A stretch of 64,000 nucleotides of DNA from Burkholderiales bacterium PBB2 (GTDB taxonomy: Bacteria; Pseudomonadota; Gammaproteobacteria; Burkholderiales; Burkholderiaceae_C), in assembly GCA_002255955.1 (NCBI GenBank), contig NKIM01000027.1, forward strand, positions 1 to 64,000. The letters are read 5' to 3'. The notes under the pieces are model-generated. The model searched no databases. It saw only the letters and a program-made list of their open reading frames with translations, and had not been told where the DNA came from. Numbering within the stretch: the first letter of the stretch is position 1; each line of letters opens with the position of its first letter. Positions 31,383 through 60,462 of this stretch are shown here, in pieces. The translations under genes were made by a program, and so were the position numbers.

Positions 31383-31397
31383 TTGGAGGAGAGGGGG
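31383..31397. repeat. attL core (15-bp tRNA-Ser 3' end duplicate)
   Basis: TTGGAGGAGAGGGGG is identical to 60448-60462, which is the 3' end of tRNA-Ser(CGA), and to 50284-50298. It marks the left boundary of island 1, with the integrase gene starting 162 bp to the right. Confidence 0.85.
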
Positions 31398-31519
31398 TCT
31401 AAGATTCGCCTCATTTTTAGGCATCCAGAGACGTTCAAAAAACAGCGATTTTCATAGGAGAAATGCAGTTTTTATGGTCCGAGCAGATCCGTCAAAAACC
31501 GCCTCAATCGCAAAATTAA

Positions 31520-31542
31520 TGGTGGAAAAGACGGCGGAAAAA
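31520..31542. repeat. Candidate integrase arm site, left end of island 1
   Basis: TGGTGGAAAAGACGGCGGAA, continuing with A residues, is nearly the same as 50222-50246 at the inner right end of the island (about four mismatches over 23 bp). Both copies lie inside island 1 near its two cores, in direct orientation, as expected for arm-type binding sites of its integrase. Confidence 0.45.
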
Positions 31543-31558
31543 TCCTAAGTTTGGACGC

Positions 31559-32806
31559 ATGGCACGGAAGGCAAAAGAGCTCGCCCCACTTTCGGTTGGC
31601 CGCCTGAATCAAAAGGGCCGCCATGCAGTAGGTGGCGTTGCCGGTCTTTACCTCTACATCGGCGAATCCGGATCCCGGTCCTGGGTCCTGCGGGCCATGG
31701 TGGGGTCAAAGCGGCGCCACATTGGCTTGGGCGGATTCCCTGATGTCCCATTGGCTCAAGCCAAGGAGCGTGCCAGAAAAGCCCGTGACGAGATTGCTCA
31801 AGGCATCGATCCCATCGCACGGAAGCGCGAGGCTATGAGCCAACTGCGCGCCAGGCAGGCGATTGCCATCACTTTTCAAACAGCGGCAGAGGCCTACATC
31901 AGCGCCCATGGAGACACCTGGAGAAGTGCAAAGCACCTCGCCCAATGGACGGCCTCGCTGAAGAACTACGTCTATCCGGTTATCGGTGACCTGCAAATCC
32001 AAGATGTCGGGCAAGAGCACGTTTTGAAGATACTCGAGCCGATCTGGAAGACCAAGACCGAAACGGCAAGCCGACTGCGAGGCCGGTTAGAGGTTGTTCT
32101 GGATTGGGCGGCAGTCCGCAAATACAGAGCTGGGGACAATCCTGCCCGCTGGAAAGGCCATCTGGACAAGCTCTTGGCAGCACCGGGCAAGATTCAGAAA
32201 GTTACGCACTTTCGAACGCTACCCATCGATGCCATGCCCGAGTTCATGCTCACGCTGAGGCAACGCAACTGCGCCGCAGCTAGGGCCCTAGAGTTCACGA
32301 TCCTGACGGCAGCTCGCAGCGGCGAGGCCAGGGGAACGACTTGGGCCGAGGTCGACATGGGAGCCAAAGTCTGGACCATCCCCGCAGAGCGCATGAAGGC
32401 CGGCAAGGAGCACCGAGTTCCACTATCTGACGAAGCAATCAGGCTGATAAAGCAAATGCCCAGAATCGAGGGGAGCAATTTCGTTTTCTCCGCCCCAAGG
32501 GGCGGCGCGCTGTCCGACATGGCACTGACCCAGATACTCCGGCGCATGGGGGCTAACGCTGTACCTCACGGGTTCCGCTCCACTTTCCGAGACTGGGCTG
32601 CCGAGAGAACAAATCACCCGAGAGAACTTGCCGAACAAGCTCTGGCCCACGCCCTTGAGAACAAGGTCGAGGCGGCCTATCGACGTGGCGACGCGCTTGA
32701 AAAGCGCCGCAATTTGATGAGCGACTGGGCTTCGTTTATTGGAAACGGGGCAAGTGAGCCAGCTGCTTCCGATCAGCTTGCCCCATTTGAAACAGACTCG
32801 CAGTAG
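31559..32806 (+). CDS. Tyrosine integrase of island 1 (P4/DUF4102 type)
   Basis: The 415-residue protein has an N-terminal DUF4102 arm-binding domain (GLYLYIGESGSRSWVLRAMV, RRHIGLGGFPDVPLAQAKERA), a core-binding domain (about 105-200) and a C-terminal catalytic domain. The catalytic set is visible: Arg in TAARSGEARGTTW, the HGFRSTFRDWAA box, a His in LAHALENKVEAAY, and the nucleophile Tyr in VEAAYRRGD. It integrates the island by site-specific recombination at the tRNA-Ser 3' end, whose duplicate lies 162 bp upstream. It is distinct from the second integrase at 50451. Confidence 0.93.
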   Translation: MARKAKELAPLSVGRLNQKGRHAVGGVAGLYLYIGESGSRSWVLRAMVGSKRRHIGLGGFPDVPLAQAKERARKARDEIAQGIDPIARKREAMSQLRARQAIAITFQTAAEAYISAHGDTWRSAKHLAQWTASLKNYVYPVIGDLQIQDVGQEHVLKILEPIWKTKTETASRLRGRLEVVLDWAAVRKYRAGDNPARWKGHLDKLLAAPGKIQKVTHFRTLPIDAMPEFMLTLRQRNCAAARALEFTILTAARSGEARGTTWAEVDMGAKVWTIPAERMKAGKEHRVPLSDEAIRLIKQMPRIEGSNFVFSAPRGGALSDMALTQILRRMGANAVPHGFRSTFRDWAAERTNHPRELAEQALAHALENKVEAAYRRGDALEKRRNLMSDWASFIGNGASEPAASDQLAPFETDSQ

Positions 32807-33329
32807 CGTTTGCCAGCAGGGGCATCAGTCAATCTCAGAGCCCCCTGACTGGGCAAAAGTCTCCTCGTTGAGCCAAACGCCACCACCCCAACCAAGCCCT
32901 CGATATGAGGAACCGTTCGTGGTCTGGGCGAACCGTCAAGCAGTTTGCTTGGTTCCTTCTCCAACGACGGTTTGGGGCATTGGGGTCACTCTTGATTTTC
33001 TGTTGGGTCGTAAGGTCGGCCGAAAAGCAGTCGATGCGCAAGCATTTCAGAGCTTGAACTACCAGCTTTGTGCGCAAAGACTGGGCTAATGCCCCTGCAC
33101 AAAAGAGACTGCCGCCTCGCCGCCGTTGCCGTGGAAAAGAAGCGGTAGCCAGGGGCTCGGCTCTCAGCCTCGACATGCCAGTGGGCGATGTAAATAGGCA
33201 CCGAAGACACCTGCGCAAGCAAGTACACCAATCGTGAAATGCAACCGCATCATGGGAAGCGATGCCCAGCAAAATGCACGCCCATAAGTGCGGCTCTATG
33301 ACCGCAAGTGCAGATCCAGGGAGACCACA
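32807..33329. other. 523-bp gap without a recognisable gene
   Basis: Several short ORFs exist on both strands, but none has a ribosome site plus recognisable sequence. It may hold promoter sequence for the following lipoprotein pair or decayed DNA. Confidence 0.5.
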
Positions 33330-34388
33330 TTGACTAGCAATCCACCCAGGCTACAGGGCCTGATGCTTGCGTTTGCACTATCCAGCTCCCCTGCGTTAGC
33401 ACAGGCGGGCGTCTATCGCTGCACCGATGCCGCCAACAAAGTGACCTACCAGGAGCAGCCATGCCCTGGCAGCAGCGAAGTTCGTTCAGTGAATGTGCCA
33501 ACGACAATTGCGACACGCACAGCTCAAGAGCCACTGCGCCCACGAAGATCCGATGCCTTCCAAGCCTTCTCTTTGGATGGCAGCTTAGAAGCACCCCGAG
33601 CCGCTGAAGCAAACGAACAGGCTGCCCCCAAATCCAACAACGCGACAAATGCGCGAAGTGCTGAGCGGCCAGCTGTGCCGGAATCACCTCGAGTTCATTT
33701 CACTTTCGATCTCTTGAGCGTTGATGGACAGAGGCTACCCTGGAGCAACACCGGGCCGAGAAACGGGAAGCGCCAAGCCGAAATGGTGCTCGGAGGAAGC
33801 CTGCTGGAGCGCGCAAACGGGGCTGCCGTTCTCATAAAAAATGGCTCAGAGGCGTACTCATTTGGTGGTGCTGGCAGCACTTTGAGATGGTTGCCAAGAG
33901 GCTTTGGAAAAGAAAGTCAGGAGATCAAGCCGCCAGCAAACTTGCCTGAATTTTCCATGGGATACGGCTTGGCCTTGGATAAGCACTCCGGCATTCTTGG
34001 CATTGTGACGCTGGGCGACCAAGGCTACTTCTATCGCTATGACACCAAAAGTCACTCGTGGCTCAGCGCGCGACCACTTCAGAACCGGGGAATCCTAAGC
34101 ATTGCATTTGATTCGAAAACACGAACCTATGTTGGCATTTCTCAGTACGGAAAGCTGGTGACCTTCAATGATCTGGGAGAGGTGCAGAAAGAGCAGCCGC
34201 TTGCCGATCGTTTGGTGGACTTTCGCAGCACCTTTGATCGTGGCATTCCACATGCCGACGGTCTGACCTTGGCACTGCACGAAGGTGCAGTGGCAATCAT
34301 CAACGTTCGCAAGTCCAAGGTCACTCACATCTGGACTCACGAGCTCGCAAGCGATCGCGCACAACTAACCTACAAGGCTGGCCTTTGA
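33330..34388 (+). CDS. Secreted protein with DUF4124 domain and propeller-like C-terminus
   Basis: From a TTG start with AGGGAG upstream the protein has 352 residues, with a signal peptide (about 1-26, LMLAFALSSSPALAQA) followed by a DUF4124 segment GVYRCTDAANKVTYQEQPCPG containing two Cys. The remainder, after an Ala/Pro-rich linker, contains strand-rich segments such as SMGYGLALDKHSGILGIVTLG and RTYVGISQYGKLVTFNDLG, reminiscent of a beta-propeller. Function is unknown; it acts outside the cytoplasmic membrane. Its stop overlaps the next gene start (TTGA). A GTG 14 codons upstream is an alternative start but would give an odd charged leader. GC content is lower than in the core genes. Confidence 0.7.
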   Translation: MTSNPPRLQGLMLAFALSSSPALAQAGVYRCTDAANKVTYQEQPCPGSSEVRSVNVPTTIATRTAQEPLRPRRSDAFQAFSLDGSLEAPRAAEANEQAAPKSNNATNARSAERPAVPESPRVHFTFDLLSVDGQRLPWSNTGPRNGKRQAEMVLGGSLLERANGAAVLIKNGSEAYSFGGAGSTLRWLPRGFGKESQEIKPPANLPEFSMGYGLALDKHSGILGIVTLGDQGYFYRYDTKSHSWLSARPLQNRGILSIAFDSKTRTYVGISQYGKLVTFNDLGEVQKEQPLADRLVDFRSTFDRGIPHADGLTLALHEGAVAIINVRKSKVTHIWTHELASDRAQLTYKAGL

Positions 34389-36229
34389 AGACTCTGAAGT
34401 TCTCTTTCAGTTGCGTTGTTCTACCTGTAAGCCTACTTCTTACGGGCTGCGATGCACTGCATCGACTCGACAGCGCAGAGGACAGGATCAATGCTGCCGC
34501 CCCCCTCGGCAGCGAACTGCAGCAGGCCCACGGTCGTATCGTCGAGTCGCTGAAAACCAGCACGACAGACTTGGCGGCATTCGAAAAGGCCTGGGGTGCA
34601 CGACTGCGAGCTCGCGCGCTGACTTGCAGTCCAGACTTCATCCCAAGTTGGCGACACTCTGAGGATGAAGTTCGCTCGGGAGTCAAAAACAAAGCTTGCT
34701 TCGAAGAGTTCGATATGCAACTGGCCCGATGGATTGGCGCCCAACGCGTACGAGCTCAGCTTGCTCTGCCTCCTCCCACGGTCGGTAGCGCTCCCCCTTC
34801 GATCACGATGCCGAGCGAGCGAGTTTCACTGGTGCAAGACACCGGCCAGGCCCCAGTCGTTGCATTGAGAGCCACCGATAGTCTGGAATTGATCGCTTTG
34901 GACAGTGGGCGAAGCCTGTTCAAGGAGCGAGGGGCTTACAGCGAAGTTAGTGTGTCACCCAATGGGCGCCTGTTTGCACAAACGACCTCGGGCGTGGCTC
35001 GGATCCGCGTCACCGACGGAGGGGAAACGCTGCTGAATCTGCAAGATGTCAGCTCCATCCACTGGCTAAGCCCGTGGTTCATTGGCGTTCGTCGCGCCAA
35101 CAACAGACAGATGTACATCTTGAGTCTGCGCTCCGCGGATGAAACTGCCATCCGTAACAGCAGTCCCTCATCCACTGAGGTTCTGCTGCCGTCGCCAGAC
35201 AACAGCAGCCGATTCAACGCGCTCAACCTCCTCGGTATGTACCAGTATGAAGTCACCGAACAGGAGGGCAAGCTCGAAGCAACGATGGTCACCGAGAAGC
35301 CCAGCGCGGACCGACGGTTCATGACTGCAGGCATGTGGAGCGGCCAGCTTGCTGCTGACAAAAGCGAGTGGATCACAAGTGAGCAAAGCAAGCTCCTTCG
35401 TATCGATCTTCGAACGCTAGAGGTTCGAGAGCACAGCTTTGAACCAGTCATCGTCAGATCGGCTACCCCCACCTCGACACCCGACCTTTTCGTAGTGGAC
35501 CTGAACATGCGAGGCGCAGCTGGCGGGCTGAGCTCCCGCAATGGCAACTATCTATTCAATGCCAGCCAGGGAACTTTGGCTCGTGTGGGCGGAGCTGCAG
35601 GTCAGCGCCGGGTGCAGTACTTTTCGGCCATCAAGCGCCTGGTTCACATCAACCATCCCACGCTTTGGCTATCGGAGCGACTGGAGACCGGGGAGCCAGT
35701 TCCAGCTACGGACGTAGTAGCGGCCATGCTTGACGAGACCAACCAACACACACTGAGTCAAATCGCTACGGAGGAACAGCGCATCAGCCAAAGTGCCCCC
35801 TTGTCGGCAGACTCGCCGCTGGCGCACTTGGTCCGCGACGCCCAAGTGGAGGGCGTCGGAATCTACGAGGCACGGGAAAAGATTGCGCAACCCGGCCAAT
35901 TGCGCGGTACTGGTCGCGTATCTGTAACTGTGCGGCGGTCAGGAAGGCCCGTCGTGCTGGTCTTGAGCTCCTACGAATCCGTGCAATGGAACATCAAGTT
36001 GGAGCCCGGGGCCAAACTGGCTGCTGTCCTGGTCGGCGGCTACGAGGAATCCACCGTACTCGGCGCGGGTGATGTACGTGTGGTGAAGATCGGCAGAATC
36101 TTTGCGTACTCTCGAGAGGGTCCCGAGTTCCTCGCCTTGCAGCGAGAAGTGGCGCGCTGGGTTGGCAAGCCCATTTCTCTTTTCCAGAGCGGTTACCACG
36201 GTAGCAGCTATACAGTCGGCGGCCCTTGA
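34385..36229 (+). CDS. Large hypothetical lipoprotein with propeller-like repeats
   Basis: The 614-residue protein begins MKTLKFSFSCVVLPVSLLLTGCDAL, a lipoprotein signal with lipobox LTGC (residues 19-22). Residues of about 150-430 contain repeated strand pairs such as YSEVSVSPNGRLFAQTTSG and VSSIHWLSPWFIGVRR, suggesting a WD-like propeller. The C-terminal 110 residues form a distinct domain (VVLVLSSYESVQWNIKLEPG, ending GYHGSSYTVGGP). It starts with TTG overlapping the stop of the upstream DUF4124 protein, so the two are coupled and probably function together at the envelope. I do not recognise the family. Confidence 0.75.
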   Translation: MKTLKFSFSCVVLPVSLLLTGCDALHRLDSAEDRINAAAPLGSELQQAHGRIVESLKTSTTDLAAFEKAWGARLRARALTCSPDFIPSWRHSEDEVRSGVKNKACFEEFDMQLARWIGAQRVRAQLALPPPTVGSAPPSITMPSERVSLVQDTGQAPVVALRATDSLELIALDSGRSLFKERGAYSEVSVSPNGRLFAQTTSGVARIRVTDGGETLLNLQDVSSIHWLSPWFIGVRRANNRQMYILSLRSADETAIRNSSPSSTEVLLPSPDNSSRFNALNLLGMYQYEVTEQEGKLEATMVTEKPSADRRFMTAGMWSGQLAADKSEWITSEQSKLLRIDLRTLEVREHSFEPVIVRSATPTSTPDLFVVDLNMRGAAGGLSSRNGNYLFNASQGTLARVGGAAGQRRVQYFSAIKRLVHINHPTLWLSERLETGEPVPATDVVAAMLDETNQHTLSQIATEEQRISQSAPLSADSPLAHLVRDAQVEGVGIYEAREKIAQPGQLRGTGRVSVTVRRSGRPVVLVLSSYESVQWNIKLEPGAKLAAVLVGGYEESTVLGAGDVRVVKIGRIFAYSREGPEFLALQREVARWVGKPISLFQSGYHGSSYTVGGP

Positions 36230-36793
36230 CTCGCTGCGCAGATACTGTTTTGCCCCATGGATTTGGCTGATGCACCGCGGCAAATCACTGGGCGTCGGAA
36301 CTTCAAGCCGCAGAGATGTGGTTGACCCGCCTACGACTCATTGGCAGCAACCAGCCTTGACTTGACCTAGCGATGTCAACGGCGGCGATGCATCGGTTGC
36401 AGTCCCTCGGTCTGCTAAGTGGGCTGTCAGCAATGTGCCCATACCGGGCATTCGCTGGCAAGCTCGAAGCCCTTTGAAATCCGGTATTGGGGTGTGCCAG
36501 GTCTCCCGAACCAGCACATCCAAAAACACGACCAAAAGCCTGCTTGCGGTTGCGAAAAACCGGCCACCCGTCTGACCAAATACACCGTCAAGTCCAGCGT
36601 CGTCATTGATATCGGCAGCTGTTCGTAACGGGCCATCGGGGCGCAGAAAAATCGATTGGGGCTGCCCTGCACGCCGCGCCGAGCCAGAGGCACGGCCCTT
36701 CGCCAGGCACAAACTCACCGCAGGGCGGGTTTGAGTCCGGGCTCAACCGCCGCCCCCCCTCAAAAGAGCCGAAGGGCTCGAAGCGTCAAAGCC
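36230..36793. other. 564-bp gap without a confident gene
   Basis: Short overlapping ORFs on both strands show no signal peptide, ribosome site or family motif. The stretch lies between convergent transcription units; no clear terminator is seen. Confidence 0.5.
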
Positions 36794-37528
36794 TCAAAGT
36801 GCCCGCCGACGACGTGCCAACAGCGCGCCGGTCAAGGCAATCAGCGTCAAAGCCAGTGTTTGTGGCTCCGGCACCGCGGCAGCCACATCTCCGGGGCGCA
36901 CAGCCAGCGCGTACATACTAAAGTCAGTGTTGTAGTGACCCTGGCCACCATCGGCGGTGTGGAAGAACCACGCGAAGTTCGATTTCGGCGCGTACGCCGT
37001 ACCGGACCAGTAGCCGCTGGACTTCACGTTTTTGAACAGCGCCAGATTCGCCTTCTCAGCTTCGGTATCACCAGTTTGATTCAGGATGGACTCAACCACT
37101 TCGCCGCCCAGTGCGTTGTAGAACAGGTGCCCCATTTCACTGCCGGTACATTTGAAGCCTCTGTATTGCGGAGCTAAGCCACCACCGGGGTTGAAAGTAG
37201 AGTCGCAGTTCGACGAGGCAGTGGCGTTGGCGTTGGCCAGGCGCCAATCGCTATGACCGGCGTAGTTGTCGGCGTTGAGCTTGGCGATCCAAGCGATGGA
37301 CTGGCTCCAAGTCATCCGGCCATCGCTGTCGTAGCCGCTGGTCTTGGCGAGGTTCCAATCCTGCAGCCATTCCAGCCCGGTGCTGGTATCCAGCACGCCC
37401 AGGCCGCTGCTCACGCTCTTGAGCACTGGGGTCGGACCGGCTTGCACCGCGCCCGCCAGGGTTAATGCGCCCAGCAGGGCGGCGGTCTTCAAGGTCCTCT
37501 TGAGCAATTGATTCAATGTCTTCTCCAT
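36794..37528 (-). CDS. PEP-CTERM protein with DUF1566 (Lcl)-like domain
   Basis: The 244-residue protein has a signal peptide (about 1-30, AALLGALTLAGAVQAG), a central domain with LDTSTGLEWLQDWN, SIAWIAKLNADNYAGHSDWRLANA and GYWSGTAYAPKSNFAWFFHTADG, the pattern of DUF1566/Lcl surface domains, and a C-terminal sorting signal VPEPQTLALTLIALTGALLARRRRAL (motif, membrane segment, Arg cluster). Such proteins are processed by an exosortase and linked to exopolysaccharide or cell surface; no exosortase gene is in this window. It lies downstream of the large PEP-CTERM gene on the same strand. Confidence 0.9.
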   Translation of the reverse strand: MEKTLNQLLKRTLKTAALLGALTLAGAVQAGPTPVLKSVSSGLGVLDTSTGLEWLQDWNLAKTSGYDSDGRMTWSQSIAWIAKLNADNYAGHSDWRLANANATASSNCDSTFNPGGGLAPQYRGFKCTGSEMGHLFYNALGGEVVESILNQTGDTEAEKANLALFKNVKSSGYWSGTAYAPKSNFAWFFHTADGGQGHYNTDFSMYALAVRPGDVAAAVPEPQTLALTLIALTGALLARRRRAL

Positions 37529-37626
37529 GGATGAATGGTGTTGAAGGTCAAGATTGAAAATGTCGGTCTTGACCCATGGGGTTATCGCTGGCGCGACAAC
37601 CCCGCTTCTGAGATGCGTTTCCTGCG

Positions 37627-37731
37627 CTAGTTCAATTCGGCCGGGGTCATGGTCAACACCAGCACCCGTTTTCCAATGGCCTCGAATACGGCCTCGGCGC
37701 TCAGGTCGACATCGCGGCCGACAAGTTGCAT
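37627..37731 (-). CDS. Possible 34-residue small protein
   Basis: Between the two PEP-CTERM genes an ORF starts with ATG at 37731, eight bases after AGGAG, and ends at 37627. It begins MQLVGRDVDLSAEAVFEAIG and ends in LTMTPAELN. The ribosome site and balanced composition are favourable, but so short an ORF could be chance. I do not recognise it. Confidence 0.35.
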   Translation of the reverse strand: MQLVGRDVDLSAEAVFEAIGKRVLVLTMTPAELN

Positions 37732-37814
37732 ATCGGTGGCTCCTGCGGTTTAGCGGGTTCGACTTGGCTGAAATGGGTGGTGCTGGAACGGGCCAGGTCA
37801 TAGCCCAAGCAAGC

Positions 37815-40547
37815 TTAGGCACGGCGCCTACGCGCGACGAAACCGACGCCGAACAGGCCCGCCAGCATCAAAGCCCAGCTGCCGGGTTCGGGCACGGCAG
37901 TCACCGTGATGCTGCCGTTGGTGTAGAGCTGGCTGAAGTCCAGCTGCGTGCCGGCAGCCAGCGTCAAGCCAGTCGCGTCAATGCTCGAGAACGTGCCGCT
38001 GCTGCTGCCCCAATCCAGCAGATCGAAGCTTTGGCCGGCTTGCGCCACAAAGCCGTTCCAGGAGCTCAGCGTCAGCTTGCCGCCCAGTCTCAAATTCCCG
38101 CCCACCACCAGTTTGTCAAAACTGCTGTCCAGCAGCGGCGAGCCCGCAGCGCAGCTCAGAGCCGTGCAGGCATTGATGCCACCAATTTCGGCCGTGTAGG
38201 TATTGCTGCCGGCGAAGGTGACCGAGCCCTGGATATAGCCGTAGCCGGGAGAGTTGCCGATGCTCAAGCCGCCCTCGAAGAACATCTTGCCGTCACCATT
38301 GACGTTGGCACCGTTGCGCTGCTTGACTTCGGCCACGAAGGTCGCCACCGAGCCTTCGGTGACGCGCAGCTCAGCATCCTTCTGGATCTCCAGCTTGCCG
38401 TACAAGGTCGTGTTGCTGAGGCCCGAGAGAATGATCTGGCTGCCCGCGCCGGCAACGATGTCGGCACGCAGGGCCGAGGTGCCGCCGCTCAAGAAGATCT
38501 GGCCTTGATTGCTCAGGGTGCCCGAGCTCAGGGTGCCGAAGCCATTGATGCTGGCGCCGGCCTGATTGACCAACGCCTTGCCGCCGTTGTCCAGCGCGCC
38601 GCCGCTCAACTGGATCTGGCCGGCATTGCTCGCCAGACCCTGGCTGATCAGCAGTTTGGCGCCGCTGCCGGCGGCCAGGGTGCCGCCGTTGGGACTGACG
38701 ATTCTGCCGGCCAGGGTCAGCGTGCCGCCTTGCGCTTCGATCACGCCGACCGGATCGATATTGGAGATGTCGTTGTTGATGCGGCCGAGGCCCTGGATCA
38801 GGCCGTGGTTGCCGATCTGCGCGCCGGCCAGGGTGGCCGTGTTGCTGCCAAGCAAGATCTGACCCTTGTTGACAAAGCTCTGGTCGATGCGGGTCTGGCC
38901 CTGCTCCACCACCAGGCTGCCCAAGTTGATGAAGCCCGAGCCGATGCTGCCGCTGCCGCTGATCGTGCCCTGGCTGGTGTTGAGCAGCGCGCCGCTGCCG
39001 ACCACGGCTCCGCCGTTCAGGTTGATCTGGCCCTGGTTGTTCAGCTGGGCACCGCTGAGTGTCAACTGCCGCCCGGCCAGGAGGTTCCAACTGCCGCGGT
39101 TTTCGTTGACACCGGTGTTGCTGAGAATCAGATCGCCGCCGCTCTGGGTCAGCAGGCCAGCGTTGACAAAGCCGCCCGTGCCGTCGATGCGGCCATAGCC
39201 GTTCAGCTCGGTGACGTTAAACAGCTGACCGGCGCCACCCAAGCGGCCGCCGGCCAGTTGCAGGCTGCCATAGTTGCTGAGGCGGGTGGTGGCGCTAAAG
39301 CTGCTGCCTTGGCCCACGATGACCTGCCCCGAAAGATTGGCGTTGCCGACCTGCAACTGGCCGCCGGTCAGGCTCAGCACGCTGGCGTCGCTCTGCGTCA
39401 GCATGCCGTCCACGCGCAAGCTCATGGCACTCGTCAGCGTGGTGTTGCGGGCCAGCAGGCCGGCGTCGGCAAAGCTGGCGTCGCCGCTGAAGTGCAAGAC
39501 GCCGCCGGTCCAGACAAAACTGCCGGCATTGCTGGAATCGGCGCTATTGACCAGGTTCAGCGTGCCGCCGGTCTGGCTGATCACGCCCCCGGCCCGGATG
39601 ATTAGGTAGCCGGCGCTCAAAGTCCCGCCGTTCAGCGTATAGCTGCCCGCCTTGCCCACCTGCAGGCGGCCCGCGACCTGATGGCTGGTGTTGCCCGATT
39701 GAGTGAAGCTGCTGCTGCCGCCGCCCACGCCGATATCGACCCAGCCGCCGCTGTTGAGGTTGGACGCGCCGTCGTTGCTATTGAGCGTGTAGCTGCCCGT
39801 GCCCCGACTGTCGAGCTGATAGCCCAGCACCAGCCCGCCCAGGGTAGCGTTGCCGCCGCTCTGGGTGAAGCTGCCGGTGCCAAACACGCCTATCGTCATT
39901 TGATCGCGGACGCTGAAGCTGCCGCCCTTGAGCGTCACGGTGCCGCTGGTACTGGGATCGTTGTAGCCTGCGCGGAATTGGCCTAGCACCGTCGTCGCGC
40001 CGCCGGTTTGGTTGAAGGCCCCAGTGCTGCCTGTCTGCCAACCGATGTCCACATCACCGGCCACGGCGGCGGTGCCGACGTTGAGCGCGCCGCTACTCAG
40101 GTTGTAAACACCCGAGCCCGTGCCCCGGTAGCCCCCGACAAAAAGCCGGCCGGTCGTGTTCGACCCACCGGACTGGTTGTAGGTGGAGATCTGCGCCTGG
40201 GTGCTGCCGATGCTCTCGGTCTTGGCGATCATCGCGCTGCTGGCCAGGCTCTGATTGAGGGTGGAGCCATAGTCCAGACTCAGCGAATTCAGGCCAGCGC
40301 CGGTGATCATCGAGGCAAAGCTTGCAGTCTTGCTGGTAGCGCCCGAGCTGCCAATCACCACATCGTCGTCGTTGACCGGCAAGACTCCGCCGGCCCATGA
40401 GCTGGTGGCGCTCCACAGTGCACCGTTGGCGCCGGTGAAGGTAACTGTGGCAGCCTGTGCCTGGCCGACGGCACCGGCCGCCATGGCCAGGCAGATCGCC
40501 ACATGCAGCGGCAGGCGACGGAAGTTTGCTGAGGCAGAGCGATTCAT
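37815..40547 (-). CDS. Large PEP-CTERM surface protein with beta-helix repeats
   Basis: The 910-residue protein has a long signal peptide (about 1-32, LHVAICLAMAAGAVGQAQA), then TVTFTGANGALWSATSSWAGG, the opening of autotransporter-like beta-helix passengers, followed by many Gly/Ser/Asn-rich imperfect repeats of about 20-25 residues (for example GTGSFTQSGGNATLGG, SSSFTQSGNTSHQVAGR). It ends VPEPGSWALMLAGLFGVGFVARRRRA, a classic PEP-CTERM sorting signal. There is no autotransporter barrel, so export is Sec plus exosortase. A biofilm or surface role is inferred. The ATG at 40547 begins the signal peptide. Three TGCGAC direct repeats lie 72-97 bp upstream. Confidence 0.88.
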   Translation of the reverse strand: MNRSASANFRRLPLHVAICLAMAAGAVGQAQAATVTFTGANGALWSATSSWAGGVLPVNDDDVVIGSSGATSKTASFASMITGAGLNSLSLDYGSTLNQSLASSAMIAKTESIGSTQAQISTYNQSGGSNTTGRLFVGGYRGTGSGVYNLSSGALNVGTAAVAGDVDIGWQTGSTGAFNQTGGATTVLGQFRAGYNDPSTSGTVTLKGGSFSVRDQMTIGVFGTGSFTQSGGNATLGGLVLGYQLDSRGTGSYTLNSNDGASNLNSGGWVDIGVGGGSSSFTQSGNTSHQVAGRLQVGKAGSYTLNGGTLSAGYLIIRAGGVISQTGGTLNLVNSADSSNAGSFVWTGGVLHFSGDASFADAGLLARNTTLTSAMSLRVDGMLTQSDASVLSLTGGQLQVGNANLSGQVIVGQGSSFSATTRLSNYGSLQLAGGRLGGAGQLFNVTELNGYGRIDGTGGFVNAGLLTQSGGDLILSNTGVNENRGSWNLLAGRQLTLSGAQLNNQGQINLNGGAVVGSGALLNTSQGTISGSGSIGSGFINLGSLVVEQGQTRIDQSFVNKGQILLGSNTATLAGAQIGNHGLIQGLGRINNDISNIDPVGVIEAQGGTLTLAGRIVSPNGGTLAAGSGAKLLISQGLASNAGQIQLSGGALDNGGKALVNQAGASINGFGTLSSGTLSNQGQIFLSGGTSALRADIVAGAGSQIILSGLSNTTLYGKLEIQKDAELRVTEGSVATFVAEVKQRNGANVNGDGKMFFEGGLSIGNSPGYGYIQGSVTFAGSNTYTAEIGGINACTALSCAAGSPLLDSSFDKLVVGGNLRLGGKLTLSSWNGFVAQAGQSFDLLDWGSSSGTFSSIDATGLTLAAGTQLDFSQLYTNGSITVTAVPEPGSWALMLAGLFGVGFVARRRRA

Positions 40548-40618
40548 TGGGGCTGATCCTGTTGCGTGTTTACTTACTGAAAGTAGACAAAATCTTCTCA
40601 CTCTCTATGGAGTTTTCC

Positions 40619-40644: not shown

Positions 40645-40703
40645 AGCACTGTCTCAATCAAATCAGCTCATTCAAAAGTACCCGTTTGTCGAATTGGACG
40701 GAT

Positions 40704-50275: not shown

Positions 50276-50283
50276 CTCACTTC

Positions 50284-53728: not shown

Positions 53729-54863
53729 CTCATTGAAGGCATTGCTAAAGGTCCAAAGCTTGTCCAAGACGGCCCGTGCGCGTGTTCCGTTTTACCGTGC
53801 GGACGTGTCGGACCACCATCGCCGCAAAGTAGGTCGGCCTTATCCGAAACGAGTGCCGGAATCCAGCCCCATGACTGGAACAGGCATGCCATTCCTTACG
53901 TTCTGGGCTGACGTAGGTGGCGAGCAGATGGCGTCCGAGCTAGTCGTGGACATGAACATTCCGAATGCCCTGGTAGGACACAACTTTGTTCATGGAACCA
54001 GCGTGTACGCGGCAGGTATGGCTACGCTGGCCTTGTTGAAGCTTTGCCTGAAGGGGCATGGCGTGCCGACCGCAGAACTTGACCGGTTGACGCCGGACCA
54101 AATTTCACTGCAAGGCGTCACGGTAACCTATCTCCTTGAATTCGGCACGGAAGGCGAACTGGCCAAGTTTGTGTCCGCCGCGGAGTTCACTGCAAAGACG
54201 TTCCGCATCGCCACGAAAATGGTCGACTCCTCCAACTTGACCATCACAGTGCCGCTTAGGGGTGCGTCCACAACGATGTATGGCAAGACTGACTTCAGTC
54301 ATTGCGCGGTAGAGGACCCGGCTGTTGTTCGGTCTTTGAAGGCCGTGGCCGCCAGAACTGCCCGCATCGAGGTCTACCTTCAGGGGCACCTGCTTCGCGA
54401 CCGAAACTGGGACACCATTGCCAGTTGGAAGGGAGCCTATTTCCAGGGGCGCTACGAGGCCATCTTCAACGAGTTCGTGCGTGGGCCGTTCCGCTGCGCC
54501 GATCTCCTACGCACGAAGAAGCCGCGAGCAGCGGCTCTTGTGCCACTGACGCCGGGGCAAGCTTCGGCATTGGCTGCTTACTTCAACGGTGATGCTTTAG
54601 ATGCGATTCCACAGATCGCTGACGGGGAAACTGCGATGGCCCGCAGCAAGCGAAAGTCCAAGCTGAAACGGGCTCTGCTCAAGAAAACTCGGATCGACAT
54701 AGGCATCCCGTGGCGAGAGCACCAGAAGTTGGACAGCGTGTATCTAGCTCGAACGCTGACCTACCCAGGCGACTACCACCCCGCCGAAGACTTGGCGCCT
54801 CATTGCTTCTGCCGTGCGAGTTGGCCCGAGTGGCGGCGGAAACTGGAAACGGCACTCCAATGA
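53721..54863 (+). CDS. Putative replication initiation protein, phage/plasmid gene II/X-like
   Basis: The 380-residue protein contains NALVGHNFVHGTSVYAAGMATLAL and LDRLTPDQISLQGVTVTYLLEFG, then TTMYGKTDFSHC and ARTARIEVYLQGHLLRDRNW, a pattern resembling the gene II/X replication family that nicks DNA to start rolling-circle synthesis. The catalytic Tyr cannot be assigned by eye, so the call is tentative. AGGAGG precedes the ATG. With the RepA-like ATPase upstream it would form a replication module for the excised island. Confidence 0.6.
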   Translation: MSDSLKALLKVQSLSKTARARVPFYRADVSDHHRRKVGRPYPKRVPESSPMTGTGMPFLTFWADVGGEQMASELVVDMNIPNALVGHNFVHGTSVYAAGMATLALLKLCLKGHGVPTAELDRLTPDQISLQGVTVTYLLEFGTEGELAKFVSAAEFTAKTFRIATKMVDSSNLTITVPLRGASTTMYGKTDFSHCAVEDPAVVRSLKAVAARTARIEVYLQGHLLRDRNWDTIASWKGAYFQGRYEAIFNEFVRGPFRCADLLRTKKPRAAALVPLTPGQASALAAYFNGDALDAIPQIADGETAMARSKRKSKLKRALLKKTRIDIGIPWREHQKLDSVYLARTLTYPGDYHPAEDLAPHCFCRASWPEWRRKLETALQ

Positions 54864-54886
54864 GAACTGCGTGACCGTGCAGTGGA

Positions 54887-55495
54887 TCAATCGGCAACTG
54901 CATTGCGGATGCCGATGATCGTCGCTCTGCTGACGTTGTAGGCCTTTGCCATGCTGGTCACGCTGGCGCCGGCCTGCAACGCCTCACGGATCGCAGCCTG
55001 CTCACTTGGGCTGGTCTTCGATGGTCGGCCCATGTGGGTGCCGGCCGCACGCGCACGGGCCTGACCGGCTTGGGTGCGTTCGATGATCAAGTCGCGCTCA
55101 AAGTCGGCCACGGCCGCCAGCATCTTGATCATCAGTGACCCAGCGGACGAGGTCAGATCGAGGTTGCCGAGTTGCAGAACGATCAGCCGGATGCCTTCGG
55201 CTTGGAACCGCTGCACGGTCTGCTGCACGTCGATGGAGTCGCGGCCGATTCGATCCAACTTGGTCACAACCAGGGTGTCACCCTCGTCCATGCGTTCAAG
55301 CAGGCGTTGAAACCCTGGCCGCTGCGCAGCCGGCACAGAGCCTGAGATTTGTTCTTCGATGAAGAACTTGGGCCTGATTTCATAGCCAGCTGCGGACACT
55401 TGTTCACGTTGGTTCTCTGTGATCTGAAGGACGGTGCTGACGCGCGCGTATGCGAAAACGCGAGATGCCCCGCTGTTGGAAAGTGGTGTCGTCAT
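54887..55495 (-). CDS. Serine recombinase (resolvase/invertase family)
   Basis: The 202-residue protein has the resolvase catalytic Ser in FAYARVSTVLQITENQ, the GDTLVVTKLDRIGRD motif with two catalytic Arg/Asp positions, the long E helix (LMIKMLAAVADFERDLIIERT) and a C-terminal helix-turn-helix (SVTSMAKAYNVSRATIIGI). It fits Tn3-type resolvases and DNA invertases of normal length. It could resolve dimers of the excised island or act at the inverted repeats in 56007-56077. An upstream ATG at 55519 adds eight residues and is an alternative start. Confidence 0.9.
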   Translation of the reverse strand: MTTPLSNSGASRVFAYARVSTVLQITENQREQVSAAGYEIRPKFFIEEQISGSVPAAQRPGFQRLLERMDEGDTLVVTKLDRIGRDSIDVQQTVQRFQAEGIRLIVLQLGNLDLTSSAGSLMIKMLAAVADFERDLIIERTQAGQARARAAGTHMGRPSKTSPSEQAAIREALQAGASVTSMAKAYNVSRATIIGIRNAVAD

Positions 55496-55597
55496 GATGA
55501 TGATGTTGGAAATGGGCATCGGCCATGTTTCTGACAGGCCAGTGGTGTGCGGCGGAAAGGGATCACTAAATAACGGTTGGCTTGTACTCGTGCAAAA

Positions 55598-55954
55598 CTA
55601 GTGCTCGTGCCTCAAGCTGAGGCAGGTTGATGCCCTGTGGTTGCCAGTTGCCTCGGACTCGGTAACGGCCTCAGTGATGACCCATATCGTTTGCCCCTCT
55701 GCTTGATAGACGCTGAAGATCCTCCCGCCGTTCTTAATGGCCTCCTCGTTGGCGTGGTCGTCCTCGGGCGGCACATCGCCCCACTGACCTCGTTCATGCC
55801 GCCGCAGGTATTCCATGGCGTTGATGCCGTTGCGGTTAAAGAAGTTGGAGGCGGCGATGGTCGCGAGGATCAGGCCAAGTCCAAACCGGGGTGGTCCGAA
55901 CTCGTCGTTGGCGGCAAGGTCTAAAGTGTCAGATAGGGTGGTGTCAGTGCACAT
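55598..55954 (-). CDS. Small hypothetical protein, plasmid/island type (118 aa)
   Basis: The protein has a hydrophobic middle FGLGLILATIAASNFF, then INAMEYLRRHERGQWGDVPPEDDHANEEAIKNG and RIFSVYQAEGQTIWVITEA. From memory this resembles a family of small plasmid proteins sharing the GxWG-DDxxN pattern and a final IWVITEA strand. Function unknown. GGGGAG lies seven bases before the ATG at 55954. Confidence 0.7.
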   Translation of the reverse strand: MCTDTTLSDTLDLAANDEFGPPRFGLGLILATIAASNFFNRNGINAMEYLRRHERGQWGDVPPEDDHANEEAIKNGGRIFSVYQAEGQTIWVITEAVTESEATGNHRASTCLSLRHEH

Positions 55955-56006
55955 GAGGGGCTCCCCAATGGTTGAGCCGCACTGCATTGGCACCGACCAG
56001 AATGAG

Positions 56007-56077
56007 AAGAGCCACGGCCGCTTGCGCAGTCGTGGCTCTTGATAGGGTCAGTACAGGGCAGCGCCGTGATGCGGCGC
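56007..56077. repeat. Inverted-repeat-rich intergenic region
   Basis: AAGAGCCACG (56007) and CGTGGCTCTT (56031) form a perfect 10-bp stem with a 14-base loop, and GCGCCG (56061) with CGGCGC (56072) forms a second hairpin. They lie in the 349-bp gap between divergent genes in island 2. Possible roles are a recombinase site, a replication origin or regulatory structure. Confidence 0.6.
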
Positions 56078-56303
56078 GACACGGCCCGCTATTGGCGCCG
56101 CAGTGTCAGTGTATCGAGGCTAGCCAGGCGCTTCGTGGAAACAAATACTTCGGCAAATGATACGGACGCCAACGGCCCGAACCATTTACGGGCGGACACC
56201 GGTCATCCGACGAAACATAGGGTTAGCTTGGGCGGTCATGTCCCTTGGCGCCTCCTGGGATTGCTCCACAATTGCAGGCATACAAATCGCGCAGCACAGG
56301 CAC

Positions 56304-57413
56304 ATGGCAACCAAAGTCACCGCAGACAGCACAAACCCGACCGACGTTTCAAGATTTGGCATCGGGGAGTGGTACGGCCAGCCATTTACTGACCTTACAC
56401 CTGAGGAACGCCTGGAATTTGCGCACTACCGAAGGCCTGCCGGCAAGACCGTTTCAAGCAAAGAGCGCGAGCGCGTGCGAGAGTTGAGGGAGAAGCGGCG
56501 AGTGTTGGCGGCCAATGGCGGTGTATTGGCACCGCGAGAAGCGGACAGACTGGCTGTACTTGAAGCCAAACTGCTAGACGAGGCAGCCAATACAAAGCCC
56601 TGCCCCTTCAAGAACGATGGGGGGTTGGGGCAAGTGCCGTGTACAAAAGAAGGCGGGGTTTGTTCCCTCCGCCTGTACGACAAGGGACCCAATGACCGGG
56701 CGGTTCTGGTCCCGGCTCCCCGTGGGGCGATTCGAGCCACCTGTCCGTCACGCTTCCATGAAGCTGGGACGGCCTTCTCTTGGGCGTCGAGGGAGATTCT
56801 CAATCAGGCCGATCCTGCTTTGGTGGGAGAAGTCGGGTTTCTTGAGTCGTCTGAAACTGTCGACGCCTCAGAGGGTGAAGACGTTGGCCGTATCGACATG
56901 GTGGTTGTCGACAACAAGAAGCCAGCAGATTACCCCTTGCCGTGGATCGCACTGGAGATCCAGGCTGTCTATTTCTCTGGCCCAGAGATGAGGTTGCTCT
57001 TCGACCAAATTGATACCGACGTTTACAACGGCCAAGACGGCTTGGTTTTCCCAGGGCAGATTCGGCGACCAGACTACCGGAGCAGCGGTCCGAAGCGCCT
57101 GATGCCCCAACTAATGATCAAAGTCCCTACATTGCGAAGGTGGGGCAAGCGTATGGCTGTAGTCGTCGATAGATCCTTCTACGACTCCATGGGTAGCATG
57201 ACGACGGTCGACGATGTATCGAACTCTGATGTGGCATGGTTCGTCGTTGACTTTGTTTACGACGCGGGCACCCGTCGCTTTGCGTTAACTGCTGGGCATG
57301 TCTTCTTTATGACCCTGGAAGAAGCGGTCAAAGGGCTAACCGGAGGCAAGCCAGTGAAGATGAGCGAGTTTGAAACACGAATCCGTGCAGGAATCAAAAC
57401 TCACCTTCCATGA
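56304..57413 (+). CDS. NotI-family type II restriction endonuclease
   Basis: From the ATG at 56304 the protein has 369 residues. Its cysteine set C100-P-F, C113, GGVC120 and C147-P matches the iron-binding Cys4 arrangement of NotI (CPF, GVC, CPN). A catalytic PD-(D/E)xK core is visible as RIDMVVVDN followed by WIALEIQAVYF, where LEIQ matches the catalytic E-x-Q of NotI. It would cleave DNA at a GC-rich palindrome; the exact site cannot be predicted. A convergent C5-cytosine methyltransferase gene follows. A longer in-frame reading from 56157 is possible. Confidence 0.85.
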   Translation: MATKVTADSTNPTDVSRFGIGEWYGQPFTDLTPEERLEFAHYRRPAGKTVSSKERERVRELREKRRVLAANGGVLAPREADRLAVLEAKLLDEAANTKPCPFKNDGGLGQVPCTKEGGVCSLRLYDKGPNDRAVLVPAPRGAIRATCPSRFHEAGTAFSWASREILNQADPALVGEVGFLESSETVDASEGEDVGRIDMVVVDNKKPADYPLPWIALEIQAVYFSGPEMRLLFDQIDTDVYNGQDGLVFPGQIRRPDYRSSGPKRLMPQLMIKVPTLRRWGKRMAVVVDRSFYDSMGSMTTVDDVSNSDVAWFVVDFVYDAGTRRFALTAGHVFFMTLEEAVKGLTGGKPVKMSEFETRIRAGIKTHLP

Positions 57414-57491
57414 CAGCCCCGGCTTGGACCGCACGCCAGAGCGTCTGATCGCGTAGCCGGCAAGAAAAAGGCATCAGTGGCGAGGGTCAGG

Positions 57492-58520
57492 CTATGCCCG
57501 CTTCTTTCGCTTCAATTCAACACATGAAGCTTCGACAGCAGGAGTGGCAAGCTGATTCTCGATGGACCGACGCAACGCATCGCCAATTGCTTTCCCGAGT
57601 AGTGGCGGAACAGCGTTTCCAACCTGCCGACCTTGGGCCGTTTTGCTTCCACAGAAGATCCACTCGTCGGGAAACGACTGAATGCGGGCAGCCTCACGGA
57701 CGGTTAGCTGCCTCGGGAGCTTGTAGTGAATGGGAGGGTGAAATCCCGCAAGGTGATCGCCTCGCGGGCCCTTTCCGCCGCCAGCGCGAATCGTCGGTGA
57801 GGGGCGGTCCGAGTAAATTCGGCCACGGCGATAGTTGGGATCGACTTCGCCTTCCTTCAGTAACTTCCATCGAGCAACCACATGTTCTGCGTGCTGGTTG
57901 GGTTCGTGATTGGCAACATCCTTCCGCTTGAGCAGATCGTGAATCGCGGCCTTTGCAGTGACCTTGGTCTGGCCGTCTGATGCTGCGGGCAGCTCGGGTG
58001 TCCAGCCCAGTCCAGCTACTACGATCAAGCGCTTCCTGCTCTGCGGGACGCCAAAATCCGAGGCGTCTAGAACGGCATAGTTCGCCGAATAGCCCAGGCT
58101 CGTCAGCTTCGCGATGAATTCATCGATGTGGTGGCTATTCTTCTTGTTCATCATGCCCGCCACATTCTCAAGAAGGATGGCCTTTGGCCGGACCCTCTCG
58201 ACGACGCGGAAGTACTCCTTCCACAAGAAGTTGCGGGGGTCATTCGGGTCGCCTTTTCCGGCAGTGCTGAATCCTTGGCATGGCGGCCCGCCGACGACGA
58301 GATCGAACGAGCCTACCGGCTGAAACTCACGGATGTCTCCCTCGTATACGGTCCATTCAGGCCTGTTGTGACGGAGCGTTTTGCACGACTCAGGGTCGTT
58401 GTCAACGCACATGACAGTCTCAAACCCGGCCATTTCAAGACCAAGATCAAGCCCCCCAGTCCCTGAGAAAAGCGACAGGACCGTCATCGGTTTTGTGGGG
58501 GGATTCTTTTTGGACGCCAT
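57492..58520 (-). CDS. C5-cytosine DNA methyltransferase
   Basis: The 342-residue enzyme has all the main motifs: I (LSLFSGTGGLDLGLEMAG), IV with the catalytic Cys (VGGPPCQGFS, about residues 76-85), VI (ILLENVAGM), VIII (QSRKRLIVV) and IX/X (QSFPDEW, GRQVGNAVPPLLGKAI). It transfers methyl groups from SAM to cytosine C5. It is convergent with the NotI-family endonuclease gene 78 bp away and is its likely protective partner. The target-recognition domain is short. Confidence 0.93.
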   Translation of the reverse strand: MASKKNPPTKPMTVLSLFSGTGGLDLGLEMAGFETVMCVDNDPESCKTLRHNRPEWTVYEGDIREFQPVGSFDLVVGGPPCQGFSTAGKGDPNDPRNFLWKEYFRVVERVRPKAILLENVAGMMNKKNSHHIDEFIAKLTSLGYSANYAVLDASDFGVPQSRKRLIVVAGLGWTPELPAASDGQTKVTAKAAIHDLLKRKDVANHEPNQHAEHVVARWKLLKEGEVDPNYRRGRIYSDRPSPTIRAGGGKGPRGDHLAGFHPPIHYKLPRQLTVREAARIQSFPDEWIFCGSKTAQGRQVGNAVPPLLGKAIGDALRRSIENQLATPAVEASCVELKRKKRA

Positions 58521-58734
58521 GATTTTCTGAACTGCTCTAGCCGATACGAAAAGGAAGCCGCTTGCTGGCCTCGAATGTGCGGCCTTTGGCCGCGGTGAAT
58601 TTTACTGGATAAATAGACAGCCTCATCGCCAAAAGCCTAAGGGCTTTCCAGACACGGCCAACGCCAACTGCAATGGAGTTGCGCGAGACATTCTGCGGCA
58701 TCGGCTGCCTGAATGGTTCAGTGGACTGCTACCT

Positions 58735-58977
58735 CTACCATGGCTCGGTATCGACACTTGCGAGACGCGGCGCCTCAACCTTGCCACCGGTGGAAAGACG
58801 ACTGAAATGGCCCTGCGGAGTGTCCCGGGCCATAACTGGCCTTACGAGGATGTCGCCGGCGTCTGTGAGCCGAACAAACAAGTACTCCCCGGCTTGGATG
58901 CCCAGACTCTCTACAACGAAGTGCGGAAGCCTCAACCCGAGGCTGTTTCCCCAGCGATTGGCTTTAACTGTGCGCAT
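58735..58977 (-). CDS. AbrB/MazE-type antitoxin-like DNA-binding protein
   Basis: The 80-residue protein has the swapped-hairpin AbrB pattern VKANRWGNSLGLRLPHFVVESLG followed by EYLFVRLTDAGDILVRPV. MazE-like proteins neutralise an RNase toxin and repress their own operon, but no toxin gene is adjacent: the next 215 bp downstream hold no ORF and then comes the methyltransferase. It may be an orphan antitoxin or a regulator of the restriction-modification genes. The start follows AAGGGGG. Confidence 0.75.
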   Translation of the reverse strand: MRTVKANRWGNSLGLRLPHFVVESLGIQAGEYLFVRLTDAGDILVRPVMARDTPQGHFSRLSTGGKVEAPRLASVDTEPW

Positions 58978-59113
58978 GACGCCCCCTTTCGACTCGATGG
59001 TATACAACGACTATCAAATTGAGCCAACCTGGCACAGACAGTCCATTGACACAGCAAAACCGGGACGCAGCTAGAACGGCGAGATGGATGGCGTTTGGTC
59101 ATTTCTGCATGAC

Positions 59114-59464
59114 CTACGGTGGCAATGGCAGGCCCTCAGTCGCCCGACGGCAGCATGCCGCCATCACCATGAAGCCAGACGCCATGTCCCCGAGTTCAGC
59201 CATCAGGTAGCCCAAGCTCTCTAGGCAGTCTGCAGCTATGGACCCGTCTTCGATGGACGCCGCCGAATGCGCCATAAGGTTGCCGATAGCTGCTAGACCT
59301 GCGTGGATCATCCGCATAGTCATTTCCGCGTCATCGCGGATCGCTACGAGCAGATGTGGGTCAGCTGCCGTGTAGTCCACCATGCGCCCTTCCGTCACCG
59401 GAAGGCATGGCAGTTGATTCAGCAGGCTGCGCATTGGCCGGATCGCTTGCATTCTGGTGTGCAT
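59114..59464 (-). CDS. Small hypothetical helical protein (up to 116 aa)
   Basis: The conserved-looking part is VDYTAADPHLLVAIRDDAEMTM and the following RMIHAGLAAIGNLMAHSA, then a helical ESLGYLMAELGDMASGF. I do not recognise the family. An internal ATG at 59383 is preceded by GGAAGG and may be the true start, giving 89 residues. It lies 19 bp downstream of the next gene on the same strand. Confidence 0.55.
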   Translation of the reverse strand: MHTRMQAIRPMRSLLNQLPCLPVTEGRMVDYTAADPHLLVAIRDDAEMTMRMIHAGLAAIGNLMAHSAASIEDGSIAADCLESLGYLMAELGDMASGFMVMAACCRRATEGLPLPP

Positions 59465-59483
59465 GGTGGGCGTCCGGCTCTGC

Positions 59484-60002
59484 TTACTTGCTGCTGCGGA
59501 TCGGAGTGGTGCCGGGGCGCTGCGTTATCTCAAGGTACCAGGCTGGCTTAAGGTTCAGATGTCCCATGTCGGTGGAGATATGAGATCGGGGGTCAAGCCA
59601 GCTATTTGGGTCCACCGTATATGAGAACGAAGGAGTCTTTTCGGTGGCGCGAACGTGGTGAAACACGACGTGCCTGCAGGCCTCGCTGTGCTTGTCGTAG
59701 TCCACGCAGAGCACAGCCACGTCAGGAAGCGCGGCAACATCTGTGAGGTCCTTGTAGTCGCTCACGGCGAGGGGGCTGAGGTTGAACAGGATCTTTCTGA
59801 ACAACACCTCGTCCATGTAGAACGGGCCGTTGGCCGGCATGCCCAGGGTGACGGCCATCTTCTTGATGTCCTCCATAGACTTGCCACACAACATAGCCGC
59901 GCAGGCCAGTAGATCGTCGTGCGTACCCTTCATTTCGACCCGCTTGAACGGGGACACGAAGCCGGGAGGGAGTTGTCCAATGTTGGTCTTGGCGCTTGCC
60001 AT
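59484..60002 (-). CDS. Hypothetical protein, possibly peptidase C39-like
   Basis: The 172-residue protein starts MASAKTNIGQLPPGF with AGGAATCAGAA upstream. Segments DDLLACAAMLCGKSMEDIKKMA, AVLCVDYDKHSEACRHVVFHHV and YTVDPNSWLDPR resemble the order of Cys, His and Asp regions in C39-like proteins of plasmids, but the usual DCG motif is degenerate (HDDLLACAAML). It may be an inactive relative. It is the last gene of island 2 before tRNA-Ser, and no exporter is nearby. Confidence 0.55.
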   Translation of the reverse strand: MASAKTNIGQLPPGFVSPFKRVEMKGTHDDLLACAAMLCGKSMEDIKKMAVTLGMPANGPFYMDEVLFRKILFNLSPLAVSDYKDLTDVAALPDVAVLCVDYDKHSEACRHVVFHHVRATEKTPSFSYTVDPNSWLDPRSHISTDMGHLNLKPAWYLEITQRPGTTPIRSSK

Positions 60003-60342
60003 TTCTGATTCCTATCTGGAGTTGAAGATGTGGCGGCGCAATGCAGCGGCTCACCTGGCCGGTGTTGGCGAGGTGAGCAGGCAATTGGGTGGAGGTGTTG
60101 AGCGGAAGCGCCCTACTCGACTTCGTGCTGGGCGCTGCATGGCGCCGACGCGCCGGCCAAGCAGAACGCATGGCACGGCTCGCAAATGCTAGTCGGGTTC
60201 AGCGAATGGGCCGATGAACAAAAAACTTCGCGCTATGGCGAGTTCCGAATCGACAGAGCGTCACGGACTAGGCCCAAAGCAGCCGTAAGCATTGGGCCGC
60301 GCCCAACAAAACATCGTGGCTGCTGACCTGACCGTGTAAACA
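60003..60342. other. 340-bp stretch without a recognisable gene
   Basis: It lies between the start of the hypothetical gene and the tRNA-Ser terminator. It probably holds that gene's promoter and the right end of island 2; no ORF is convincing. Confidence 0.5.
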
Positions 60343-60376
60343 AAAACGCCGCATCGACAATGCCGATGCGGCGTTA
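60343..60376 (-). terminator. Terminator downstream of tRNA-Ser (within island 2)
   Basis: AACGCCGCATCG and CGATGCGGCGTT form a perfect 12-bp stem; on the minus strand TTTGTTT follows. It now ends the tRNA-Ser transcript, although it belongs to island 2 and not to the original locus. Confidence 0.8.
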
Positions 60377-60447
60377 TGTGAGTTGACTTGTGAGTCGGTG
60401 ACTGCTAGGCTAAAAAACCTCTACAAATCAATGACTTACAGTAACAC

Positions 60448-60462
60448 TTGGAGGAGAGGGGG
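60448..60462. repeat. attR core within tRNA-Ser
   Basis: TTGGAGGAGAGGGGG is the reverse complement of the tRNA-Ser acceptor 3' strand with CCA and part of the T stem. It is identical to the cores at 31383 and 50284. Confidence 0.85.

Follow-up and report, generated by a model that had tools for sequence, protein, structure and literature searches.

Evidence for two integrative islands in tandem at the 3' end of one tRNA-Ser(CGA) gene in Burkholderiales bacterium PBB2

Integrative islands that share one tRNA gene have been described in several settings. Table 1 of the Islander study counts 125 tandems of at least two islands and four of at least three among 3919 islands (PMC4383910). A review of integrative and mobilizable elements (IMEs) reports accretion at one tRNA gene of elements with distantly related integrases and a chimeric attachment (att) site between them (PMC5704250). 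In the KplE1 prophage, where the promoter region of the integrase and the recombination site overlap at intS-attL, self-repression of the integrase has been demonstrated (PMC2951348); in the Shewanella composite island CGI48, HipAB contributes to island maintenance (PMC8978831). Here we analyze a stretch of 64,000 nucleotides from Burkholderiales bacterium PBB2 (contig NKIM01000027.1, positions 1 to 64,000; hereafter the window), in which two separate integrative islands, A and B, appear to have been inserted, by tyrosine recombination of the lambda type, into the 3' end of a single tRNA-Ser(CGA) gene. Judging from the sequence alone, we give this reading a probability of about 0.93. Coordinates of all features are collected in Table 1.

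The locus shares some traits with each of these systems. The arrangement of IME_Sag2603_tRNAlys beside a decayed integrative and conjugative element (ICE) is alike in its very different integrases, its chimeric att site and the tRNA 3' end at one end (PMC5704250), whereas, unlike in the described accretions of ICEs, IMEs and cis-mobilizable elements, no conjugation or mobilization genes were recognized in A or B among the proteins scanned. The integrase of KplE1 lies beside the tRNA, whereas those of A and B lie at the far end by the displaced fragment (PMC2951348). CGI48, too, is a composite tRNA-locus island that carries hipAB, paralleled here by HipAB-like genes recognized from their sequence; there, however, one island was captured inside the other, whereas A and B stand side by side (PMC8978831).

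The window holds a single tRNA gene, which Rfam placed at 60452-60536 in concordance with ARAGORN. The first-pass annotation had proposed that a 15-bp core from the 3' end of this gene occurs three times, at 31383, 50284 and 60448, and exact copies of the 15-mer TTGGAGGAGAGGGGG (plus-strand reading) were confirmed at these positions, the only three in the 64 kb and all in plus orientation. When up to three mismatches were allowed, one extra match appeared (14772, three mismatches), and shuffled sequence gave a mean of 2.35 matches under the same setting; loose matches are therefore at chance level, whereas three exact co-oriented copies are not expected by chance. The exact 15-mer is present in only 10 of 299 family genomes, which rules out a widespread genomic repeat, and only the window's own genome (G000) has three copies. 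Among 18 genomes of the genus, own included, which form the basis of all genus comparisons below, a 14-bp core was found three times in G000 only, twice in G004, G006, G008, G013 and G014, and once in 12. Of the second copies, that of G004 is at another place in its genome, and that of G014 is at a contig end resembling the tRNA's own left flank. No second core was seen in the 1.86-kb stretch of G010. The GC content is 66.4% left of core 1, 59.5% in island A, 57.7% in island B and 64.8% right of core 3. As a side observation, the tRNA and serS are 81 bp apart in the window, and their matches are 0.3-1.9 kb apart in G004, G005, G006 and G014 (L070, L074, L075, L076).

An integrase gene had been noted about 150 bp to the right of each of the first two cores; the measured distances to the gene starts are 161 bp from core 1 for IntA and 152 bp from core 2 for IntB. 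Pfam assigned Arm-DNA-bind_3, Phage_int_M and Phage_integrase domains to both proteins, a set that we take to be that of the DUF4102-type integrases, and the R, HxxR and H...Y motifs look intact in both. With 40% identity over 407 columns, the two are divergent despite their common architecture, just as the annotation had it. This low identity and the differing end repeats described below rule out that both integrases stem from one duplicated island. An IntB-like integrase was found in four of 299 family genomes, own included (E 1e-100). Island A thus presents an intact tRNA, a downstream 3' fragment in the same orientation and an internal integrase, and island B its own core fragment (50284) and its own integrase. 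As in the Islander arrays, each member has an integrase and a tRNA fragment of its own at one tRNA gene; the Islander account of such arrays does not discuss end repeats and terminators (PMC4383910).

Relatives with an empty or differently occupied site support the tandem. An empty serS-tRNA-Ser locus, of the kind anticipated in the first-pass annotation, was found on contig C92 of G011, the nearest genus mate by its serS stretch (about 94-95% identity), although only 31 bp of that contig remain to the left of the core. There, the counterpart of window 31352-31397 is joined directly to that of 60448: the 31 bp left of the core match the window's left flank at 29 positions, and the tRNA and serS follow. 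Island B DNA was not found in G011, and the cargo of A gave three matches there (69-79%), all at other places. An IntA-type integrase is present in G006 (81% identical) and G013 (86%; a contig end cuts the gene), in each case with a core 160 bp before it and with an IntA-type repeat left of the tRNA; because integrase and tRNA are on different contigs in both genomes, we infer their connection. In the G006 stretches examined, the only matches to A cargo were one of 90 bp to a dispersed repeat and, left of the core, a weak response-regulator match. G007 has an IntA-type repeat left of its tRNA, and no integrase was found there at E 1e-40. G008 has two cores 9.3 kb apart and, behind the distal one, a third tyrosine integrase without a blast match to IntA or IntB; its island (L065 9725-19050, reverse complement) contains both flanks of the NotI pair of B with other open reading frames (ORFs) between them. 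The empty site, these other occupants and the different end repeats of A and B together bear out the proposed tandem, and a genome with conserved gene order through 31.4-60.4 kb lacking the repeats did not appear among the 18. Variability also extends left of 31383 (window 9100-31383): DNA corresponding to window 20.4 kb lies close to the tRNA or its insert in G005 and G008, and in G001 and G003 this position is taken by DNA corresponding to about 9.1 kb.

The wider IntA family was sampled as the best 80 of 577 named relatives. A tRNA-Ser gene lies on the opposite strand within 12 kb of the integrase in 17 of these, and at 16 of the 17 loci a 14-17-bp copy of the tRNA-Ser 3' end is found 159-281 bp before the integrase. 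Upstream sequence was sufficient for 78 relatives, two being dropped as too short. The core pattern was detected in 62 of these, or in 58 after four removals by hand (copies within a neighbouring intact tRNA, oppositely oriented), compared with 45 of 1427 control windows. Seven relatives have the integrase beside an intact tRNA-Ser instead (L162, L173, L184, L199 and, by eye, L100, L102 and L107). All four isoacceptors (CGA, GCT, TGA and GGA) are represented. In a quick integrase tree of 87 rows, in which 35 of 84 inner branches are unresolved, isoacceptor changes number 15 among the 28 labelled rows versus 14.8 with shuffled labels; the family therefore appears to move freely among serine tRNAs. 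One IntA relative, in Rhodoferax antarcticus (L139), is at a tRNA-Asp, and a strict rule of serine targets is ruled out by it. Other arrays were also observed. In Sphingomonas sp. AR_OL41 (L148), the same core lies 172 bp before each of two IntA-type integrases; a G008-type and an IntA-type integrase are paired in a Burkholderiales metagenome-assembled genome (L136; same place as G121 and L250) and in G391 (L248). No intact tRNA was found within the sequence examined for L148, L136 and L248, so the target of these arrays is deduced from the core.

The two islands differ in their ends. Each has a paired direct repeat just before its integrase gene and another of the same type at its opposite end, and each type occurs at two sites in the window, only at the ends of its own island. 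The pattern search for the IntA type allowed spacers of 5-8; shuffled windows gave on average 0.83 matches to this pattern and 0.07 to the IntB pattern. The best 21-bp match between left and right ends is 18/21 for island A. For 17 of 22 islands, G008 apart, the match between the integrase side and the far end exceeds that in all 25 interior control windows. The integrase of G008 has five relatives; four islands of this family, without L246, which is at a tRNA-Asp, entered the end comparison, and their ends match at 17 to 21 of 21 positions. The ends of the G008 island itself match at 15, against a control maximum of 14, over a stretch other than the paired repeat; the pair at the island's left end is of the GTGGTAAA type and the one at its right end of the IntB type. 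This suggests that the G008 island is a hybrid, the remnant of a G008-type island and a B-type one in tandem after loss of the middle. Scanning with what we take to be the consensus of integration host factor (IHF) returned one site in the window, near core 3, where 0.32 are expected and 28 of 100 shuffles had at least one. Among IntA relatives, IHF sites were found at 11/58 integrase sides, 2/58 chromosome sides and 3/16 tRNA sides, compared with 5/1078 control windows.

Terminator-like hairpins are present on the tRNA-downstream side of all three cores and on the other side of none (0/3). Since each core has such a hairpin, each island seems to supply a new terminator for the tRNA, and we tentatively propose that each brings its own. 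The hairpin at 31334-31360 was probably once the terminator of the tRNA itself, now stranded to the left of the outermost core; sequence adjoining it sits next to the tRNA in G011. A second terminator tool found two of the three hairpins and did not list this one, for which a stem that continues into the T tract may be the cause. The hairpin beside the tRNA varies between genomes, and the stranded sequence left of the distal core is near-identical in G008 and G013, with a hairpin recognized by eye. Of 17 genus tRNAs examined, 15 had enough flank, and strict detection returned a terminator at 10 of these. Among IntA relatives it did so at 28/56 distal cores, compared with 0/56 on the integrase side and 12/800 random windows, and at 5/15 tRNA-side flanks compared with 0/15 on the tRNA's other side.

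These features suggest how the islands may accumulate. IntA and IntB would act on a common core derived from the tRNA, each binding its own paired repeat, of which one copy lies just before the integrase gene and one at the opposite end of the island. Upon insertion, the island-borne half-site would rebuild the tRNA 3' end and place the island's terminator behind the tRNA, and the former terminator would be displaced to the far end, such that the tRNA stays whole, terminated and a target for the next island. By analogy with KplE1, the repeats just before IntA and IntB suggest that self-repression may operate here too. Integrase binding, excision, the order of entry and integrase self-repression are points that we infer. 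A broader proposal, which we find plausible but would put somewhat below even odds, is that serine-tRNA islands of this kind are end-labelled cassettes, with an integrase-specific paired repeat at both ends and a replacement terminator at the tRNA end. Such cassettes could pile up without harming the tRNA, and collapse of tandems into hybrids with mismatched ends, as in G008, could create new combinations of integrase and cargo.

Three other explanations were considered. The three cores could be chance copies or an unrelated short repeat in 29 kb of ordinary chromosome, given that the core is just 15 bp, that chance gives similar numbers of matches at three mismatches and that homologues of A cargo lie in the chromosomes of genus mates; the exactness of the copies, the matching integrase distances, the empty site in G011 and the lower GC content make this very improbable. 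A less remote alternative, though still an unlikely one, is that islands of separate origin were joined elsewhere and arrived as one accreted pair of 29 kb, which differs from the preferred reading only in the place of joining. Either history leaves the same sequence, and the IME review allows for the acquisition of a whole earlier accretion in such tandems (PMC5704250). However, genus mates have either an A-type integrase (G006, G013) or a B-type right end (G008) alone, and because the outermost ends of the pair carry different repeats, one integrase would need mismatched ends. Slightly less probable again is a hybrid origin of island B, with the right part taken from a G008-type island and IntB added on the left. 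Window segments 55622-56154 and 59134-60448 are indeed common to B and the G008 island, whose integrase gave no blast match to those of the window, but the left and right repeats of B resemble each other and those of G008 do not, so that it is G008 that looks like the hybrid.

Several observations weigh against the reading of two separate insertions, or against the end-repeat and terminator rules attached to it. Both orders of island entry leave the same structure, so the order is unreadable. The G011 contig stops 31 bp left of the core, in a genome that is 76% complete, and the integrase and tRNA of G006 and G013 are on separate contigs. The repeat patterns were composed after the sites had been seen, and in G013 and G008 the IntA pattern also has lone matches at places other than the tRNA end. 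The end match of island B, 16/21 versus 15 for the interior control, is only a slight excess; L151, L152, L181, L182 and L188 failed the end comparison, and of the 17 islands that passed it L143, L155, L180 and L185 match another island's right end equally well (12 others compared). Among the 17 loci with a nearby tRNA-Ser, L194 has no core, and one control window of L180 also reached 17 bp. Strict detection found terminators at only 28/56 distal cores, 5/15 tRNA-side flanks and 10/15 genus tRNAs, and 20/56 distal flanks have a terminator in the opposite direction too. Lastly, no conjugation or phage structural genes were recognized among the proteins scanned.

Table 1. Features of the tRNA-Ser(CGA) locus and of islands A and B (window coordinates)
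Feature	Position	Strand	Basis or remark
tRNA-Ser(CGA), intact	60449..60536	-	ARAGORN; sole tRNA in window
Core copy 1, displaced tRNA 3' end, proposed outer att of island A	31383..31397	+	exact 15-mer
Core copy 2, proposed att common to A and B	50284..50298	+	exact 15-mer
Core copy 3, 3' end of intact tRNA gene	60448..60462	+	exact 15-mer
Island A, 18.9 kb	31398..50283	.	bounded by cores and IntA-type repeats; absent at site in G011
Island B, 10.1 kb	50299..60447	.	bounded by cores and IntB-type repeats
IntA, 415-aa tyrosine integrase	31559..32806	+	Pfam
IntB, 426-aa tyrosine integrase, ATG 50451	50451..51731	+	Pfam
IntA-type paired direct repeat, left end, GGTGGA-n6-GGCGGA	31521..31538	+	just before IntA
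IntA-type paired direct repeat, right end, GGTGGA-n6-GGTGGA	50223..50240	+	left of core 2
IntB-type paired direct repeat, left end, AGTCGA-n6-AGTCGA	50424..50441	+	just before IntB
IntB-type paired direct repeat, right end, AGTTGA-n6-AGTCGG	60381..60398	+	left of core 3
IHF-consensus site, 9 bp left of core 3	60426..60438	+	only one in window
Terminator-like hairpin, tRNA direction, T tract to left	31334..31360	-	11-bp stem and T tract; own detector
Predicted terminator carried by island A	50252..50270	-	two detectors
Predicted terminator carried by island B, now behind tRNA	60345..60375	-	two detectors
DUF4124 protein and 614-aa protein without family	33288..36229	+	family scan
Two PEP-CTERM-motif proteins (342, 928 aa) and fatty-acid hydroxylase	36794..41570	-	family scan
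Response regulator and histidine kinase	42294..44364	+	family scan
Glyoxalase-like protein, S41 peptidase, 168-aa protein without family	45744..48257	+	family scan
HipA-like and HipB-like HTH protein, near right end of A	48393..49990	-	family scan
114-aa ORF and AAA_25 ATPase, primase/helicase-like	52026..53424	+	family scan
Serine resolvase/invertase	54887..55519	-	family scan
NotI-family restriction endonuclease	56157..57413	+	PF12183, 4e-72
C5 cytosine methyltransferase	57492..58520	-	PF00145, 1.7e-70
Two small ORFs (116, 172 aa) common to G008 island	59114..60002	-	83% protein identity each

The cargo of island A appears to be resident in the genus rather than exotic, since pieces of it (window 33159-44364) have 67-88% homologues at other places in genus mates. 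The 33288-36229 region has an 82% DNA homologue at G010:C22, and the gene for the 928-aa PEP-CTERM protein is 88% identical to that of G003, above the value for serS (81%). None of the three integrases had a match in seven genus-mate stretches of 15-20 kb each that contain homologues of A cargo. Window 44911-45618 is a dispersed repeat, about 710 bp long and free of long genes, that includes an 11-bp array (nnnnCCGGACC) from 45088; the own genome has two more copies and G010 has three, with identities of 80-88%.

Some island B DNA was found in three of the 18 genus genomes, own included. The 114-aa ORF of B looks AlpA-like by eye only, having no Pfam match at 1e-3 and matching one PHROG of unknown function (0.0019). 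The island scan left a 614-aa and a 380-aa protein without a family. PADLOC, run on 10 proteins, returned methyltransferase models for one protein and one weak HTH match. Neither a relaxase nor conjugation genes, by which an ICE is recognized, were found among the main island ORFs, the small ORFs having been only partly scanned, and Pfam and NCBIfam gave no prophage structural or packaging genes among the proteins scanned. In a PHROGs scan of 10 proteins the only packaging match was a weak one to the resolvase (E 0.0098).

The tandem of A and B is well supported and belongs to a known class of genome hot spot, in which islands accrete in tandem at tRNA genes. Should the end-repeat rule prove valid, the borders of such islands would be readable from sequence, because the repeat before the integrase would recur at the island's other end, and tandem islands could then be separated and hybrids recognized. 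Replacement of the tRNA terminator offers a possible reason why such insertions can do no harm and can recur at one tRNA gene.

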